From a virus: DNA of 53,296 nucleotides. This document shows, piece after piece, positions 27,779-40,647 of this stretch. The notes under the pieces were generated by a model. That model worked only from the letters and a program-made list of their open reading frames with translations, had not been told where the DNA came from and ran no database searches. A program made the translations under genes and the position numbers. The stretch spans positions 1 to 53,296 of IMG/VR virus record IMGVR_UViG_3300037485_000957. The stretch is one strand, 5' to 3'. Numbering within the stretch: the first letter of the stretch is position 1; each line of letters opens with the position of its first letter.

Positions 27779-27865
27779 GAAGGGGTGGCGGAACTGGTAG
27801 ACGCTATACTTAAGCAGTTGAAGCTGGGAAATTCAACAATGCAGGATCATACCCTGCCCCCTTCA
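27779..27865 (+). tRNA. tRNA-Leu-like element 2, aberrant anticodon arm
   Basis: GAAGGGG (27779-27785) pairs perfectly with CCCCTTC (27858-27864), then A. The D arm GCGGAACTGGTAGACGC is textbook tRNA-Leu. Total length is 87 bases, normal for class II. The T stem and ATCATAC loop are identical to element 1. The best anticodon loop (CTTAAGC, anticodon TAA) sits on a stem with two mismatches and one G-T pair, while GTTGAA/TTCAAC forms a strong variable hairpin. Either an atypical tRNA-Leu(TAA) or a mimic. Confidence 0.5.
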
Positions 27866-27887
27866 CAAACATTAAATAACGAACATC

Positions 27888-35505: not shown

Positions 35506-35516
35506 GTCATGTAGTA

Positions 35517-35939
35517 TTAAATTACTCTCCCTCTCTCCTCGTTCGTCTTCTTCAGATGGCATGCTTTACACAGCACCTGAAACGCCTTAGGATCTTCTGG
35601 TGTCAAGCGCTCAATGAACATAGCTACGTCATCGTACCCTCTTAGTGAACCACAGGGAATGATATGATCCACCTCAACGCTTGTCCTTGCGTACCAGTTC
35701 GTGCATATAGCACATTGGTATTCAAACTTTATCTTGCGATTTAAACTGCGTGAGTTGCGCTTAGAGCTATCAAGTGCCATCTTCATCGGTGTCCACCATC
35801 TGAATGCACTACGAAGGGCGCTACGTAGCTTCTGAAAGTACTGCGCCTCTGTCATCGTTCCCCCGTTTCTCGTACGTGGAACTCTCGTGGCTTGCTTTTT
35901 CTTTACAACGCCGCCTCTTCTTCTTAATACTATAGCCAT
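35517..35939 (-). CDS. HNH endonuclease
   Basis: The 140-residue protein has a basic N terminus (RRRGGVVKKKQATRVPRTRN). An HNH domain follows: CAICTNWY with a CxxC zinc pair, VEVDHIIPCGSL with the catalytic His, QVLCKACHLKKTN with the second CxxC and terminal HxxK. It could be a packaging-linked nuclease or a free-standing homing-type enzyme. A TAAATTTG box lies 18 bases upstream. Confidence 0.8.
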   Translation of the reverse strand: MAIVLRRRGGVVKKKQATRVPRTRNGGTMTEAQYFQKLRSALRSAFRWWTPMKMALDSSKRNSRSLNRKIKFEYQCAICTNWYARTSVEVDHIIPCGSLRGYDDVAMFIERLTPEDPKAFQVLCKACHLKKTNEERGRVI

Positions 35940-35957
35940 CGCAACTCAAGATTTTTT

Positions 35958-35965
35958 CAAATTTA
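35958..35965 (-). promoter_or_regulatory. Promoter of the HNH gene
   Basis: TAAATTTG on the minus strand, 18 bases before the ATG at 35939. Confidence 0.5.
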
Positions 35966-35986
35966 CGCTCTGGAGCGCTTTCTTTA

Positions 35987-36346
35987 TTATTCAAATGATT
36001 CATTTCCTTTAGCAATGTAGTAAAACAATTCAAGCGAATAAGGAACGCTGTAAATGCTGGCCTTTGGATACGCTCTGTCGATCTCCTCTATTGTATTCAT
36101 CACCTCAATGCGAGGCGCTGTATTAGGTAAGTCTACACCCATATGCTCAGCCATCTGCTTTTGGATAAGGATGGTTAGCTTACCCAAGGGCACTTCATGG
36201 GAGTCAGCAAAATACGATGCTCTTACATGGCCCTTCTCTGCCCACCACCTACGGGCAGCGTTCTCTAGGCATATCTCTTCCATCTTTACCTCAACACGCT
36301 TCCTATCTTGATAGGTGTCGTTTATCATCTTATCCTCTAATGTCAT
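35987..36346 (-). CDS. Protein with helical core, unknown
   Basis: The 119-residue product (MTLEDKMINDTYQDRKRVEV) contains CLENAARRWWAEKGHVRASY. It is soluble and mixed alpha/beta. ATGA-coupled to the gene upstream. No family recognised. Confidence 0.5.
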   Translation of the reverse strand: MTLEDKMINDTYQDRKRVEVKMEEICLENAARRWWAEKGHVRASYFADSHEVPLGKLTILIQKQMAEHMGVDLPNTAPRIEVMNTIEEIDRAYPKASIYSVPYSLELFYYIAKGNESFE

Positions 36347-36756
36347 AGCGATAGGATTTTAATAGACAACCCATCCCCTCCTGATGTGTAGAATGCTGGC
36401 TCTATAACACACCCCTCGTCATCAATGACAAGCATACCCTTCTGTGATTGCGTATAGGCAACCTTCGCTTGCTCCTGCACTTCCTTAGTCTTATCGGCCA
36501 GCTCCACTACACGTGGGCAGTTCTTATAATCCCACTTGCCAGGATTGGATTTCTTCGTTACCTCAGCGCCATTGCATGCAAATGACTTCTCGGAATACTT
36601 ACTAGCCTCTACAAGTGCTTCATTGAACACTTGCTTCATCGAAGCCTCAAGCACTTTCTCTATGCGCTTAAAGTCAACGTATGCGCTTAACGCATTAGCA
36701 TCACCATCTTCTACTGCTGCAGCCATCGCCGCAATTTGATCTACAATGTTTTTCAT
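36343..36756 (-). CDS. Conserved phage protein, helical then beta
   Basis: The 137-residue protein has an N-terminal helical part and a central segment SFACNGAEVTKKSNPGKWDY, then KTKEVQEQAKVAYTQSQKGM. The arrangement is familiar from replication regions of Bacteroidota phages, but the function is unknown. It is the first gene downstream of the cassette-like island. Confidence 0.55.
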   Translation of the reverse strand: MKNIVDQIAAMAAAVEDGDANALSAYVDFKRIEKVLEASMKQVFNEALVEASKYSEKSFACNGAEVTKKSNPGKWDYKNCPRVVELADKTKEVQEQAKVAYTQSQKGMLVIDDEGCVIEPAFYTSGGDGLSIKILSL

Positions 36757-36787
36757 GTTTGTTTTGTTTTAAGTTATTTGTCGCTGC

Positions 36788-36840
36788 ATTAGCGAAAGAA
36801 TGTTACGGGTATAAGTAGTTATAAGCAAGCTGCTACGTTC
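36788..36840 (-). repeat. Partial attC-like site at the end of the methyltransferase gene
   Basis: On the plus strand GTTATAAGCAAGCTGCTACGTTC (36819-36841; quoted as GTTATAAGCAAGC then TGCTACGTTC) matches GTTATACGCAAGC...CTACATTC at the edge of the complete element at 37495-37560. The gene's TAA stop falls inside the TATAAC box. A clear opposite half is not seen; the site looks truncated or degenerate. Confidence 0.45.
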
Positions 36841-37463
36841 CTGCTCCGAATGAAAGTTCCCCATTGTTCAGCCATAGCTTTTGCCACCCCACTAAAAGTT
36901 TTTGAGCTTTCCTTTTGGCTTATGCTTACAGAATGGTATTTCTGTCCTCGTTTTTTCCCTCCAGTATTGCTCGGTAAATACGGCTTATAGTTGCTTTGAA
37001 TATCAGTCGGCTTTAATAGTGGCAAATTTTTCAACCACAATAAAGTTCGTTTACTGTATTCATGTCCATATTCGTATGGCTGTATCGCTTGGCTATGTTT
37101 TGGCAATTCAACTACTTTTAATGGTGTTGGGTTTTCAACTGCAATAAATTCAATCGGTGCATTAAGTAGTTCCAAAAACATAGCTTTCGCTTCCATTGCT
37201 TTTGAGTATCTATCTTGGCACAAATTACCTGCCGTTGGGTACATCCATCTTGCTCCAGCCTTACTCATATAAGTACAAGGCGGGTGTGCAATCATCATAT
37301 CGTATTTGCCACTATAAGCCTCTTTTACTGCATCGCCTACAATATGCCATTCGGGTTTATTACCGCTACATTCTTGTAGGTCGCAACTATAAGCCTCAAA
37401 TCCTAATTCTCGGAAAGCTCTGCAAACTTCTTGGCTCTCCTCACAAGCTATTAATATTTTCAT
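36819..37463 (-). CDS. DNA cytosine methyltransferase-like protein
   Basis: The 214-residue protein starts with a SAM-binding strand (KILIACEESQEVCRAFRELG), followed by an acidic loop (CDLQE). It has a catalytic PPC at 61-63 in AHPPCTYMSKAG and ENP at 110-112 in AVENPTPL. This is the short phage-type cytosine-C5 methyltransferase widely seen in phage genomes. The target recognition region is small (SNTGGKKRGQKY). It would protect phage DNA from host restriction. It ends inside an attC-like box and starts after a complete attC-like element, so it appears to be carried as a cassette. Confidence 0.8.
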   Translation of the reverse strand: MKILIACEESQEVCRAFRELGFEAYSCDLQECSGNKPEWHIVGDAVKEAYSGKYDMMIAHPPCTYMSKAGARWMYPTAGNLCQDRYSKAMEAKAMFLELLNAPIEFIAVENPTPLKVVELPKHSQAIQPYEYGHEYSKRTLLWLKNLPLLKPTDIQSNYKPYLPSNTGGKKRGQKYHSVSISQKESSKTFSGVAKAMAEQWGTFIRSRNVAACL

Positions 37464-37494
37464 TTCAATTTAAGTTTTTAGTTAATAATCCGCA

Positions 37495-37560
37495 GCCAGC
37501 TTATAACAGCGGTTTGGCGGCATTAAAACGACCGCCAAGCCGCAACCGTTATACGCAAGC
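37495..37560. repeat. attC-like imperfect hairpin between cassettes
   Basis: TTATAAC (37501-37507) and GTTATAC (37548-37554) pair as outer boxes. GCGG/CCGC and TGGCGG/CCGCCA pair inside, with unpaired bases on one side only, around an 11-base loop. GCCAGC flanks it. Outer R-type boxes, inner L-type boxes and extrahelical bases are the architecture of integron attC sites (about 60 bp). Confidence 0.6.
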
Positions 37561-37626
37561 ACTACATTCGTTCTCCGATTTAACTTTTGTGGAAGTAAAA
37601 AAGAAAATAAAAATTTACCCACGCTT

Positions 37627-38046
37627 TTAATAAGGTTTAATTACACTTTTGTTTAATCCGTATTCAATAGCATAATTAATACACTCCATCAGTGATGTTA
37701 TTGAGTTTGTTTTTGTTTTGTGTCCGTAATATTTCTCATCGTCATAATACAACTGCAAATCATTTTTGAACTTTGGAAAGAAGTATTTGCCACACAAATC
37801 AATTTCGGCAATCCACTCCGTTTCGTATTCAGGTAACCCTATTGTTAATCCATTTACCAATCCTTCTGTTTCAAAATGATTATCTAAAATGTCAGTTGTA
37901 TATATTTTAACTAACGCATTGCCTTCAAATCTTCCTTCGCAAAGTTCAATTAAATATTGCGTTGAAATATCGTTTTCAGATTTGAAGTAAACACCAAATT
38001 TTAAGTATTCGTTTGGTGTGTCTTTTGGTTTAAAATTTGTTTCCAT
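37627..38046 (-). CDS. Cassette protein, unknown
   Basis: The 139-residue protein (METNFKPKDTPNEYLKFGVY) is acidic, aromatic-rich and soluble. It is preceded by a strong purine-rich ribosome site (AGGAGG 6-7 bases before ATG), unlike most genes in this window, and by a TTAATTGAAAC leader shared with the other cassette genes. It lies between two attC-like elements. No family recognised. Features suggest recent acquisition from a Bacteroidota chromosome. Confidence 0.6.
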   Translation of the reverse strand: METNFKPKDTPNEYLKFGVYFKSENDISTQYLIELCEGRFEGNALVKIYTTDILDNHFETEGLVNGLTIGLPEYETEWIAEIDLCGKYFFPKFKNDLQLYYDDEKYYGHKTKTNSITSLMECINYAIEYGLNKSVIKPY

Positions 38047-38114
38047 AATTCCCTCCTAAATTTTTATTTTCTTTTTTACCGTGTTTCAATTAAACATTCT
38101 ACTAAATCAACCGT

Positions 38115-38217
38115 GCCAGCGTATAACACGTGCTATAAGCAAGTTTGCCAATAACTTTTTCGGTAACTTGAACATTTTTGCAAGGCAAACCTGCTCATAG
38201 CACCATACGTTAGCAGC
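38115..38217. repeat. Second, larger attC-like imperfect hairpin
   Basis: GCCAGC then GTATAAC (38121-38127) opens the element; GTTAGC (38209-38214) closes it. Between them TGCTATaAGCAaGTTTGCC pairs with GGCAAACcTGCTcATAGCA, a long stem with single unpaired bases, around a 34-base loop. The GCCAGC plus TATAAC edge is identical to that at 37495. Length about 100 bases fits attC. Confidence 0.6.
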
Positions 38218-38221
38218 AATT

Positions 38222-38545
38222 TCACGATAGCCTCAAAGCCCTGAACCAATTCAATAATCGATTCTTTTCTCCAAGTGAATAACCCCACCTTCCTGTAATC
38301 AAAAAAGTAATAGGTAGGATCAGGATCATTAACAACATTGTCAGTGTTGCAAACGGCAGTGTTAATCTCATCCAGAAATTAACAGGCGTTTGTTCTTCGC
38401 AATAAAACTCAATGTTTAATTCAATAAACCTATCGCACAACTCCTCGCTACCAATATTCGAAAGCTCTGGAAATACTTTTTTGAAGTTCGGCATGTAATT
38501 AGCATAACCGTTTGACCAAGTCCTTCTTAATTTCCTGTACATCAT
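38222..38545 (-). CDS. Cassette membrane protein, unknown
   Basis: The 107-residue protein has a soluble N-terminal helix region and one long hydrophobic stretch (LPFATLTMLLMILILPITFL) at about 63-86, followed by a basic tail. It has a TTGAAACGAAATC leader like the HD gene. It lies directly before the second attC-like element. No family recognised. Possibly an inner-membrane passenger of the island. Confidence 0.55.
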   Translation of the reverse strand: MMYRKLRRTWSNGYANYMPNFKKVFPELSNIGSEELCDRFIELNIEFYCEEQTPVNFWMRLTLPFATLTMLLMILILPITFLITGRWGYSLGEKNRLLNWFRALRLS

Positions 38546-38586
38546 GATTTCGTTTCAAATTAAGTTTGGGGTGTGGGTGGCTGGAG

Positions 38587-39117
38587 TCAGGCTACAACCG
38601 TGTAGCCTAAACACCTTTTTAAATCATTGACAATATCTCGGTAGTGGTGCATTTCGCTTTCATTCGGAAACAATGATTGCAAAAAAGCAACATTTTCTTG
38701 CTGATAAACACCATACATATTTGACCTAGTTTCGTAACTGTACTGCGCATTTGCAAATCTATCACAAAGCTTTACATACTTTGCCCACATCGTTTTTCTG
38801 ATACCATCGTAATAAGCATCGTTTGCCCTTTCTTTTCGGTTCTTACCTTTTTCGTTGGTTACAGCGTAAACAATGTTCGCAACGGATGCTCCAGCAACTT
38901 GTTTAATATCGTTGTAGGTCATTCTACAATCTTCAATAGTATCGTGCAACCAACAAGCGTCTAATACATCGCCTTGCGCTTGCTCAGGGATGCAGTCAAT
39001 ATACTTTTGTGCAATCATTGCTACCATTGATAAATGTACCGAATAAGGTTTCCCATCGTATAAATGGTTTGTGTTGTTGTGTGCTTCGATTGCGAAGCTG
39101 ATTATTTCACTGTTCAT
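38587..39117 (-). CDS. HD-domain hydrolase of SpoT/MESH1 type
   Basis: The 176-residue protein has the metal site of (p)ppGpp hydrolases: His28 in YSVHLSMV, His58-Asp59 in WLHDTIED, and a later Asp in KYVKLCDRFAN. The order and spacing match the HD half of RelA/SpoT and stand-alone MESH1. It may remove (p)ppGpp or hydrolyse another nucleotide, which would help a phage keep host metabolism active. It carries a GTTGAAACGA leader and is the first gene of the cassette-like island. Substrate unproven. Confidence 0.7.
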   Translation of the reverse strand: MNSEIISFAIEAHNNTNHLYDGKPYSVHLSMVAMIAQKYIDCIPEQAQGDVLDACWLHDTIEDCRMTYNDIKQVAGASVANIVYAVTNEKGKNRKERANDAYYDGIRKTMWAKYVKLCDRFANAQYSYETRSNMYGVYQQENVAFLQSLFPNESEMHHYRDIVNDLKRCLGYTVVA

Positions 39118-39184
39118 ATTAAAAACTTCAATCTCGTTTCAACTCTATTTTCACTCTTACGTGACTCATCGCCTTTGAATTTAA

Positions 39185-39210
39185 AAGGGAGGAGATTACG
39201 CCCCTCCCTT
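39185..39210. terminator. Terminator between the SSB-like gene and the cassette island
   Basis: AAGGGAGG (39185-39192) pairs with CCTCCCTT (39203-39210), followed on the minus strand by TTTT. It isolates the island from the replication genes upstream, so the HD gene needs another promoter. Confidence 0.75.
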
Positions 39211-39219
39211 ATGTTGTGA

Positions 39220-39963
39220 TTAAATCATATCCTCAGCGCCGTCGAAGAAGTCAGCAGGGAGATCGTCTGTATTAGGCAGCTCCGCTTTCTTCTTTGATGC
39301 TGGACGCTTCTCTTCTTCGAAGGAAGGGACAGGTACTTCTTTGCGTTCGTTAGTAAGAGGATTTACAGCAGGGATCGATTGGATACCAGCATCCATCATA
39401 GAGGCGAACTCAGGTGATTTCTTAATCTCCTCTTGCAACCACTCAGGTAGCGTCTTAAACACTTCCTCGTCATGCATAAGTGGAGAATACGATACCAATG
39501 GATTGATTGGCAGTGGAGCAGGAAAGCCCTTAGGGATAGGCATGAACGCTTTGATGTTAGCGTATGTCTTTGTCCCGTCCTTCGATGGCTCATGCACCAC
39601 GTTAATCATACACGCTTTACCAAGCAGGTTACGGAAGTCATAAGAAGACGCTTCTTTATCGGAGGCGAACGCCTTACCAGCAATACCTTCAATCATCTTG
39701 CGTAGTCCTGCCTTCTCGTTCATAGTACGAGTGTACTTACATCCCAGTACCATAGGCTTCTCAGGATCGCCTTCTTTGAATACTCGCATTTCTGTCGAGC
39801 TTTCAAATGTGAAACGCATTGTGTCTTTAAGCCCAGGGAATTGTCCCCCTTGCTCCTGATGACCAACGTGGATCATAGAATACAATACTGCGATTTGTGC
39901 TCCTGCGGGGAACAGCTCTTTGTCGAATGATGCACCAGACGTTGGTGCTGTGAATGGATTCAT
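39220..39963 (-). CDS. Single-stranded DNA-binding-like protein
   Basis: The 247-residue protein has a central beta-rich segment (FESSTEMRVFKEGDPEKPMV quoted in part) and LLGKACMINVVHEPSKDGTK followed by TYANIKAF, typical of the OB core of phage-encoded SSB-like proteins. A Pro-rich middle leads to an acidic C-terminal tip (DDLPADFFDGAEDMI), the usual protein-docking tail of SSBs. It lies in the replication region. The call is from pattern and tail. Confidence 0.65.
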   Translation of the reverse strand: MNPFTAPTSGASFDKELFPAGAQIAVLYSMIHVGHQEQGGQFPGLKDTMRFTFESSTEMRVFKEGDPEKPMVLGCKYTRTMNEKAGLRKMIEGIAGKAFASDKEASSYDFRNLLGKACMINVVHEPSKDGTKTYANIKAFMPIPKGFPAPLPINPLVSYSPLMHDEEVFKTLPEWLQEEIKKSPEFASMMDAGIQSIPAVNPLTNERKEVPVPSFEEEKRPASKKKAELPNTDDLPADFFDGAEDMI

Positions 39964-39974
39964 AGTTATTGGTT

Positions 39975-40250
39975 TTAGTTGTTAAATTGTTCGCTGTAAA
40001 GCACCTCTTGATTACCGGCCAGTTCTGTAATGATGTCATTGTGGACATCGAAGAACTCAGCTGTTGAGATGGCTGTGTATTGTGGGCTATCGCTCAGTAG
40101 CGTATGTATGATGGTTTTGATAGTTTCGAACTCATCAACCACTCTGATGCCGCGCTGGCCCTTCTGGCAATAGACGCTTATCATTCTCTTGGAGGTGTAG
40201 TCAACACGGAAGTACTCTTCCTCCGAGCTAAGCTTGAATGTGAATATCAT
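39975..40250 (-). CDS. Small beta-rich protein, unknown
   Basis: The 91-residue product (MIFTFKLSSEEEYFRVDYTS) lies just upstream of the SSB-like gene and overlaps the previous gene by 4 bases. Strand-rich first half, helical second half. No family recognised. Confidence 0.5.
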   Translation of the reverse strand: MIFTFKLSSEEEYFRVDYTSKRMISVYCQKGQRGIRVVDEFETIKTIIHTLLSDSPQYTAISTAEFFDVHNDIITELAGNQEVLYSEQFNN

Positions 40251-40537
40251 AGTATGTCCTCCAGTATTAAGTCAACAAAAAACTCCTGACTGCCACACGC
40301 TTTAGCATGCAAGGCGTAACGCTTTATCTTATCAATGCGCGTCTCTTCAATAGGCTTCCTTTTCAAGTAAAGGGGCTGCTCCTGAGGAGTCTCGGTAATA
40401 GAGAATCTGTTTGACGAGTATCTATTCCCATTTACTAGAAAGTAAGAGCCGTATAACTCCCCTTTGTATAGATTGCCATAAACAAGATCAGTGTCCTGAT
40501 CGCTTATGCAATACATTTCAATGTCACGCTTTGCCAT
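40247..40537 (-). CDS. Small protein, first gene of the SSB transcript
   Basis: I use the ATG at 40537 (MAKRDIEMYCISDQDTDLVY, 96 residues), since the longer open frame upstream starts with a TTG inside the promoter box. The first half looks like a small beta barrel and the second is basic and helical. It is driven by a promoter with the AATAATACC element in inverse orientation. Confidence 0.55.
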   Translation of the reverse strand: MAKRDIEMYCISDQDTDLVYGNLYKGELYGSYFLVNGNRYSSNRFSITETPQEQPLYLKRKPIEETRIDKIKRYALHAKACGSQEFFVDLILEDIL

Positions 40538-40558
40538 ATATAGTCTGTTTGTTTGATG

Positions 40559-40582
40559 CAAATATACACTGTAAATAATACC
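40559..40582 (-). promoter_or_regulatory. Promoter with upstream GGTATTATT element
   Basis: Minus strand: GGTATTATT (complement of 40574-40582), 7 bases, then TATATTTG (40559-40566). About 20 bases of leader. Similar geometry to 11694-11717 and 17680-17706. Confidence 0.65.
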
Positions 40583-40647
40583 TATTACAATATTGTTTTA
40601 TTTTATATGGTATTTTGCGTTAAACGATTGATAGAGAGTGGATTATT

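Follow-up and report, generated by a model that had tools for sequence, protein, structure and literature searches.

The window, that is, the whole stretch of viral DNA analysed here (one viral record of 53,296 bases), carries an island of four genes, flanked on either side by a minus-strand core phage gene (36343-36756 and 39220-39963). The island genes all lie on the minus strand and encode a methyltransferase, a 139-residue protein, a 107-residue protein, and an HD-domain protein, with functions predicted from sequence (Table 1). Pfam has no family for the 214-residue methyltransferase, and the 139-residue protein matches no family in Pfam, PHROG, or NCBIfam and has no relatives in the viral collection. 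The HD-domain protein might, at a guess, act on alarmone-type signals. Two traits described in an earlier note on this DNA are recovered: a TTGAAA-type leader, detected as a loose repeat (family D1), and a strong ribosome-binding site on one gene, that of the 139-residue protein. The latter gene is also flanked, within its cassette, by a 23-base perfect inverted repeat (37595-37617 and 38057-38079). The likely host phylum is Bacteroidota. Elsewhere in the window lies a tRNA-Leu gene (27779-27866, anticodon aag), and the relative L002 has one too.

Table 1. Coordinates of the island and its component features in the window (a slash marks the expected cleavage position)
Feature	Coordinates	Strand	Remarks
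Whole island	36786-39188		Missing from sister phage L001
attI-like core, outer array edge	36805-36826	+	ACGGGTATAAGTA/GTTATAAGC; expected cleavage G36818/T36819
Cassette 1	36819-37548	+ (attC top-strand orientation)	Methyltransferase gene in reverse; 93-94% DNA identity to L005, L006, L007, L008, and L016
DNA methyltransferase, 214 aa (predicted)	36819-37463	-	Stop codon inside R box; PHROG 757 "DNA methyltransferase", E 4.7e-50
attC of cassette 1	37501-37554	+	R'' TTATAAC to R' GTTATAC; model R1 34.7 bits, E 3e-6
Cassette 2	37549-38209	+ (attC top-strand orientation)	139-aa gene in reverse; borders are the R' boxes of both attC sites
139-aa protein, function unknown	37627-38046	-	Ribosome-binding site AGGAGGG (strong)
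attC of cassette 2	38121-38215	+	R'' GTATAAC to R' GTTAGCA; model R1 39.8 bits, E 1.9e-7
107-aa gene	38222-38545	-	PHROG 36118 (unknown function), E 5.9e-35; probably membrane; third-cassette remnant
HD-domain gene, SpoT hydrolase-like (predicted)	38587-39117	-	Pfam HD_4 E 6.8e-9; spoT_relA E 1e-8; cassette remnant

The earlier note had also reported two complete attC-like hairpins (37495-37560 and 38115-38217). Both are borne out by folding and by a covariance model (R1), whose two matches in the window are these same elements; no third attC is found by the model up to E = 10 in the 53 kb. The model derives from an alignment of 53 chromosomal Bacteroidota sites, each close to a tyrosine recombinase and taken from longer stretches around these enzymes. 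As viral sequence was left out, the choice of sites does not affect the test on the window. Selection of the sites combined filtering for hairpins with a simple rule on their edges, which also set the orientation, and kept lengths of about 118-135 bases; the alignment therefore has pairing, the AAC and GTT boxes, and some of the edge letters built in. Every aligned site has the edges AACA and CGTT, and each of the 15 stem pairs varies on both sides. Elsewhere, related virus arrays and a single Hymenobacter locus yield about 75 model matches; L001, L003, R100, TJE1, and H101 yield none. An Rfam search gave no meaningful match.

Folded as single-stranded DNA, the region of the first site (37488-37568) reaches z-scores of -3.5 on the plus and -3.7 on the minus strand, and that of the second (38108-38225) -1.2 and -2.5, respectively. 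At each site the fold is more stable on the minus strand, the bottom strand of attC (-18.8 vs -15.9 and -19.7 vs -14.2 kcal/mol). Measured against RYYYAAC/GTTRRRY, the outer boxes keep AAC and GTT exactly at both sites, with some outer letters off the R/Y consensus. The GCCAGC that the earlier note found in both hairpins is the cassette end beside the R'' box (GCCAGCTTATAAC, GCCAGCGTATAAC). These properties support the identification of the two hairpins as attC sites of integron cassettes, and two such sites in one cluster, about 0.6 kb apart and with no integrase, constitute a CALIN. The hairpins had been thought to separate all four genes, which holds for the two sites; no attC-type element lies between the membrane-protein gene and the HD-domain gene or before the latter in the window. 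The array consists of two cassettes followed by two genes that have lost their boxes.

A partial third attC had been placed at the methyltransferase stop codon. This position has no model match, and the stretch 36781-36840 folds unremarkably (z about -1.5); the position is instead the outer edge of the array and resembles an attI core. The edge, GGGTATAAGTA/GTTATAAGC, is similar over a short match to the sequences directly 3' of host recombinase stop codons: GCGGGTATAAGGTA/GTTATGTG (L263), CATATAAACGA/GTTAGC (L262), and a further form, GCGGGTATAAGGTA/GTTATG. Identity to the methyltransferase cassette of unrelated contigs ends at this core. In 34 viral loci (L005, L085, L092, and L176-L206, a few of which are repeated contigs), TATCCYATTGCCGCAATATTGCGTGATATAT is conserved as a terminal site immediately after the last cassette box; it occurs in several kinds of phage whose last cassettes differ, and it stands where the polarity of attC leads one to expect attI. 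The exact pattern of this site is absent from 395 Bacteroidota genomes. An alternative assignment as a phage attachment site was dropped because the site always abuts a cassette box. On these comparisons, the outer edge of the window array may be read as an attI-like site.

The island as a whole is missing from a sister phage (L001) whose flanks are 86-91% identical to the window and align to 35511-36785 and 39203-40610. Since L001 lacks the island despite such similar flanks, the island is an insertion or replacement at a variable spot in the phage genome. L002, the alignment of which begins at 39189, and L003 also differ from the window at this position. At the position of the island, L001 has a tRNA-like gene (1412-1501, anticodon undetermined).

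The two genes without boxes have relatives that are better preserved. Intact relatives of the 107-residue gene (L086-L088) are located between GTTATAGGGC and GCCCTATAAC, of which the window copy retains a single box, GTTAGCAGC (38209-38217), while intact relatives of the HD-domain gene (L092-L094) lie between GTTATGCGTTCGGGC and GACGCATAAC, neither of which is present in the window. Because the relatives have boxes, the edges have been lost in the window, and with only two intact sites and two of four genes without borders, this copy may be decaying. It is conceivable, but rather unlikely, that ordinary or illegitimate recombination brought in the island in one piece and that its cassettes are immobile in the window phage. 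The eroded genes, the lack of an integrase in the window, and the fact that no near-identical sister of the window phage with other cassette content was found are in keeping with such a fossil; however, the methyltransferase cassette is intact, as are the two attC sites, the edge is attI-like, and close cassette kinds move in cultured phages.

The extent of the mobile unit can be read from the ends of shared sequence. In the five unrelated contigs that share the methyltransferase cassette (Table 1), identity to the window stops at the boxes (TATAAC box), and L006 aligns from box to box with the attC included (36818-37553). In the other four (L005, L007, L008, and L016), the gene has different upstream hairpins, so inheritance of the gene does not always include its attC. 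When all related loci are compared in pairs, 93 of 305 matches stop at the TAAC box downstream of the gene, compared with 2.6% by chance, a descriptive figure given that the pairs are not independent. The upstream hairpin, in turn, is common to copies with differing downstream sequence (window/L006, L033-L036/L100, L093/L094, and L086/L087). Both patterns led to the rejection of the canonical unit, a gene with its downstream hairpin; most simply, the mobile unit would be an attC combined with the next gene along the direction of transcription.

If each attC belongs to the gene following it in this direction, the genes are reversed inside their cassettes. The attC of aadA1 and the chromosomal Bacteroidota sites alike read TAACA...CGTTA on the gene strand, and the window sites read this type on the plus strand, opposite to the genes. 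The longest open reading frame follows attC in 36 of 39 chromosomal cassettes vs 4 of 51 phage cassettes (p 4e-17, with cassettes of the same array not independent). These 51 were gathered via the window's own genes, for which reason a second sample was taken with a gene-blind attC pattern; it yielded 41 reversed genes and none in the other orientation, in 19 loci, and the model matches there agree. Combined, 88 of 92 phage cassettes (47/51 and 41/41) carry reversed genes vs 3 of 39 beside chromosomal recombinases.

Movement of such units is seen in cultured virulent Flavobacterium phages, which had matched the methyltransferase cassette of the window in the first search. Their arrays contain many model matches, almost none of which share a strand with the genes; each of the three that do overlaps a stronger match on the other strand. 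A 439-bp cassette lies inside the array in lillamy9-1 and at attI in lillamy9-7, with no mismatches in the other 4,124 bases, and snork6-2 is without one 342-bp cassette of lillamy9-1, with no mismatches in 3,254 bases. Cassettes therefore move in these phages as exact units with G/TT junctions, and the attC-model match and the cassette-precise differences among related phages on which the earlier note had staked its proposal both exist. By extension, cassettes may also move in the window phage.

The same comparisons bear on two other explanations. Phages recombine at short homologies, and the boxes could be mere shared stretches of 7-12 bases used by the phage machinery, with no site-specific recombinase involved; the cassettes of the moved pair start with GTTATA. 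Such an origin is nevertheless improbable, since hairpins that covary around fixed edges imply selection on structure, the moved cassette sits exactly at the attI position, and the sites are linked to a recombinase in chromosomes. The notion that the hairpins are ordinary transcription terminators or scattered intergenic repeats of Bacteroidota draws on their intergenic location and on how common the sites are in the phylum (see below), but it is close to untenable: exact cassette differences already make it unlikely, no T run follows the hairpins, shared sequence ends with the boxes, gain, loss, and movement affect entire units, and the sites keep a single fixed polarity relative to attI. Nor do covarying stems and invariant edges fit terminators, which the earlier note had named as the reading that could overturn its own.

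As the earlier note had observed of integron integrases, the search for a tyrosine recombinase in the window record, which may be incomplete, was empty. The enzyme is likewise absent from 30 of 32 related viral records (two have one) and from all five cultured phages; IMG/VR records are mostly fragments, which makes absence there weak evidence, whereas the cultured genomes are complete. Chromosomes of Bacteroidota, by contrast, have a recombinase beside similar sites, and the suggestion that a host integrase is used fits this distribution. Relatives of the methyltransferase occur next to a tyrosine recombinase in a Bacteroidales contig (89% identical; L227, recombinase truncated) and in Hymenobacter (66% identical; L100), where the cassette directly adjoins the enzyme. 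A similar methyltransferase cassette is carried by two contigs binned as Patescibacteria and Izimaplasma (L098 and L099), which are probably misbinned phage contigs.

Of 148 Bacteroidota genomes, 54 encode relatives of the Hymenobacter/Bacteroidales recombinase. Around 30 of these recombinases, 21 attC-like hairpins lie at a distance of up to about 1.5 kb, compared with 1.3 in shuffled sequence. Sites of the attC-like kind seen in the window are present in 82 of the 148: in 49 of the 54 with the recombinase vs 33 of the 94 without a strong enzyme match (p 1e-11, related genomes not being independent). Because of these 33 genomes, the link between enzyme and sites is a statistical one that draws on neighborhood and co-occurrence. 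The recombinases keep the catalytic residues and, in most cases, have an N-terminal extension, but the IntI-specific domain is absent: an alignment with IntI1 shows a gap of about 45 residues at this domain, and matches to TIGR02249 are split around it, at 169-210 bits vs a cut-off of 265. The nearest NCBI model is NF040815, "site-specific tyrosine recombinase/integron integrase". At loci L219-L280 of Bacteroidota genomes, XerA/IntI-like recombinases without the IntI domain adjoin attC arrays, and these loci possibly represent a widespread integron system overlooked by current tools.

Integrase-less cassette clusters in phages are already known. Qi et al. 2023 (PMC9892861) described CALIN in phages including Polaribacter P12002L and obtained attC × attI1 recombination for five of six phage sites, among them P12002L_attC2; for virulent phages they report no attI and no cassette movement, and gene reversal is not discussed. 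The window is like these clusters in having at least two attC sites with cassettes, a methyltransferase payload, and no integrase. The covariance model recovers a single P12002L site (E 2.9e-4) and has no match in TJE1 or H101/PH101, the sites of which accordingly belong to other kinds of attC. Recombinases in the Bacteroidota chromosomes examined are transcribed toward attI, an arrangement shared with the chromosomal integrons of Treponema (PMC3607928); unlike in Treponema, the Bacteroidota enzyme lacks the IntI-specific domain and the phage cassettes have reversed genes. The class 1 integron (R100, aadA1, IntI1) shares the TAACA...CGTTA top-strand edges of attC, the G/TT boxes, and the catalytic residues of the recombinase, but differs in that the model misses the aadA1 attC and the Bacteroidota enzymes are missing the IntI1 residues noted above.

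IntegronFinder 2.0 (PMC9024848) lists only one complete integron in Bacteroidetes proper, where complete integrons were considered very rare. The 82 genomes with sites stand against this reported near-absence, and the adjoining recombinase would escape a search for IntI. No published report of the Bacteroidota recombinase or of reversed phage cassettes was found in a literature search that covered few subscription journals and preprints. As far as this literature goes, the new elements are (i) reversed genes in phage cassettes, (ii) phage attI-like sites, (iii) movement between near-identical virulent phages, and (iv) a widespread enzyme without the IntI domain.

Taken together, the island is very likely a short integron cassette array of an integrase-less Bacteroidota phage, with units that a host recombinase would move. 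Each unit would consist of one gene and one attC. A host tyrosine recombinase would cut the folded single strand of attC at G/TT of the outer box, and the unit would be released as a circle and then inserted at the array's downstream end, into the attI-like site. The reversed genes would point to this site and so run in the same direction as phage transcription. Payloads of the methyltransferase type probably protect phage DNA from host restriction and would be swapped among phages and with host arrays. On a broader scale, there is a reasonable case for an overlooked integron system common to Bacteroidota and their phages, in which the hosts contribute the XerA/IntI-like recombinase without the IntI domain and the phages an attI-like site and a pool of reversed-gene cassettes, with anti-restriction genes being swapped within and between infections. 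Reshuffling of methyltransferase cassettes by virulent phages would amount to a fast change of restriction protection.

The cultured Baltic Flavobacterium phages make the idea of cassette exchange testable now. Their discoverers tied poor plating on LMO6 to a missing methyltransferase and mention neither cassettes nor integrons (PMC7077304). A methyltransferase gene lies between attC sites in snork6-1, snork6-2, sniff9-1, and mumin6-1 and is absent from lillamy9-1; it may be the gene that the discoverers linked to plating on LMO6. Its coordinates between attC sites are 5818-6660 in L410, 6161-7003 in L413, 6210-7052 in L414, and 5426-6268 in L416.
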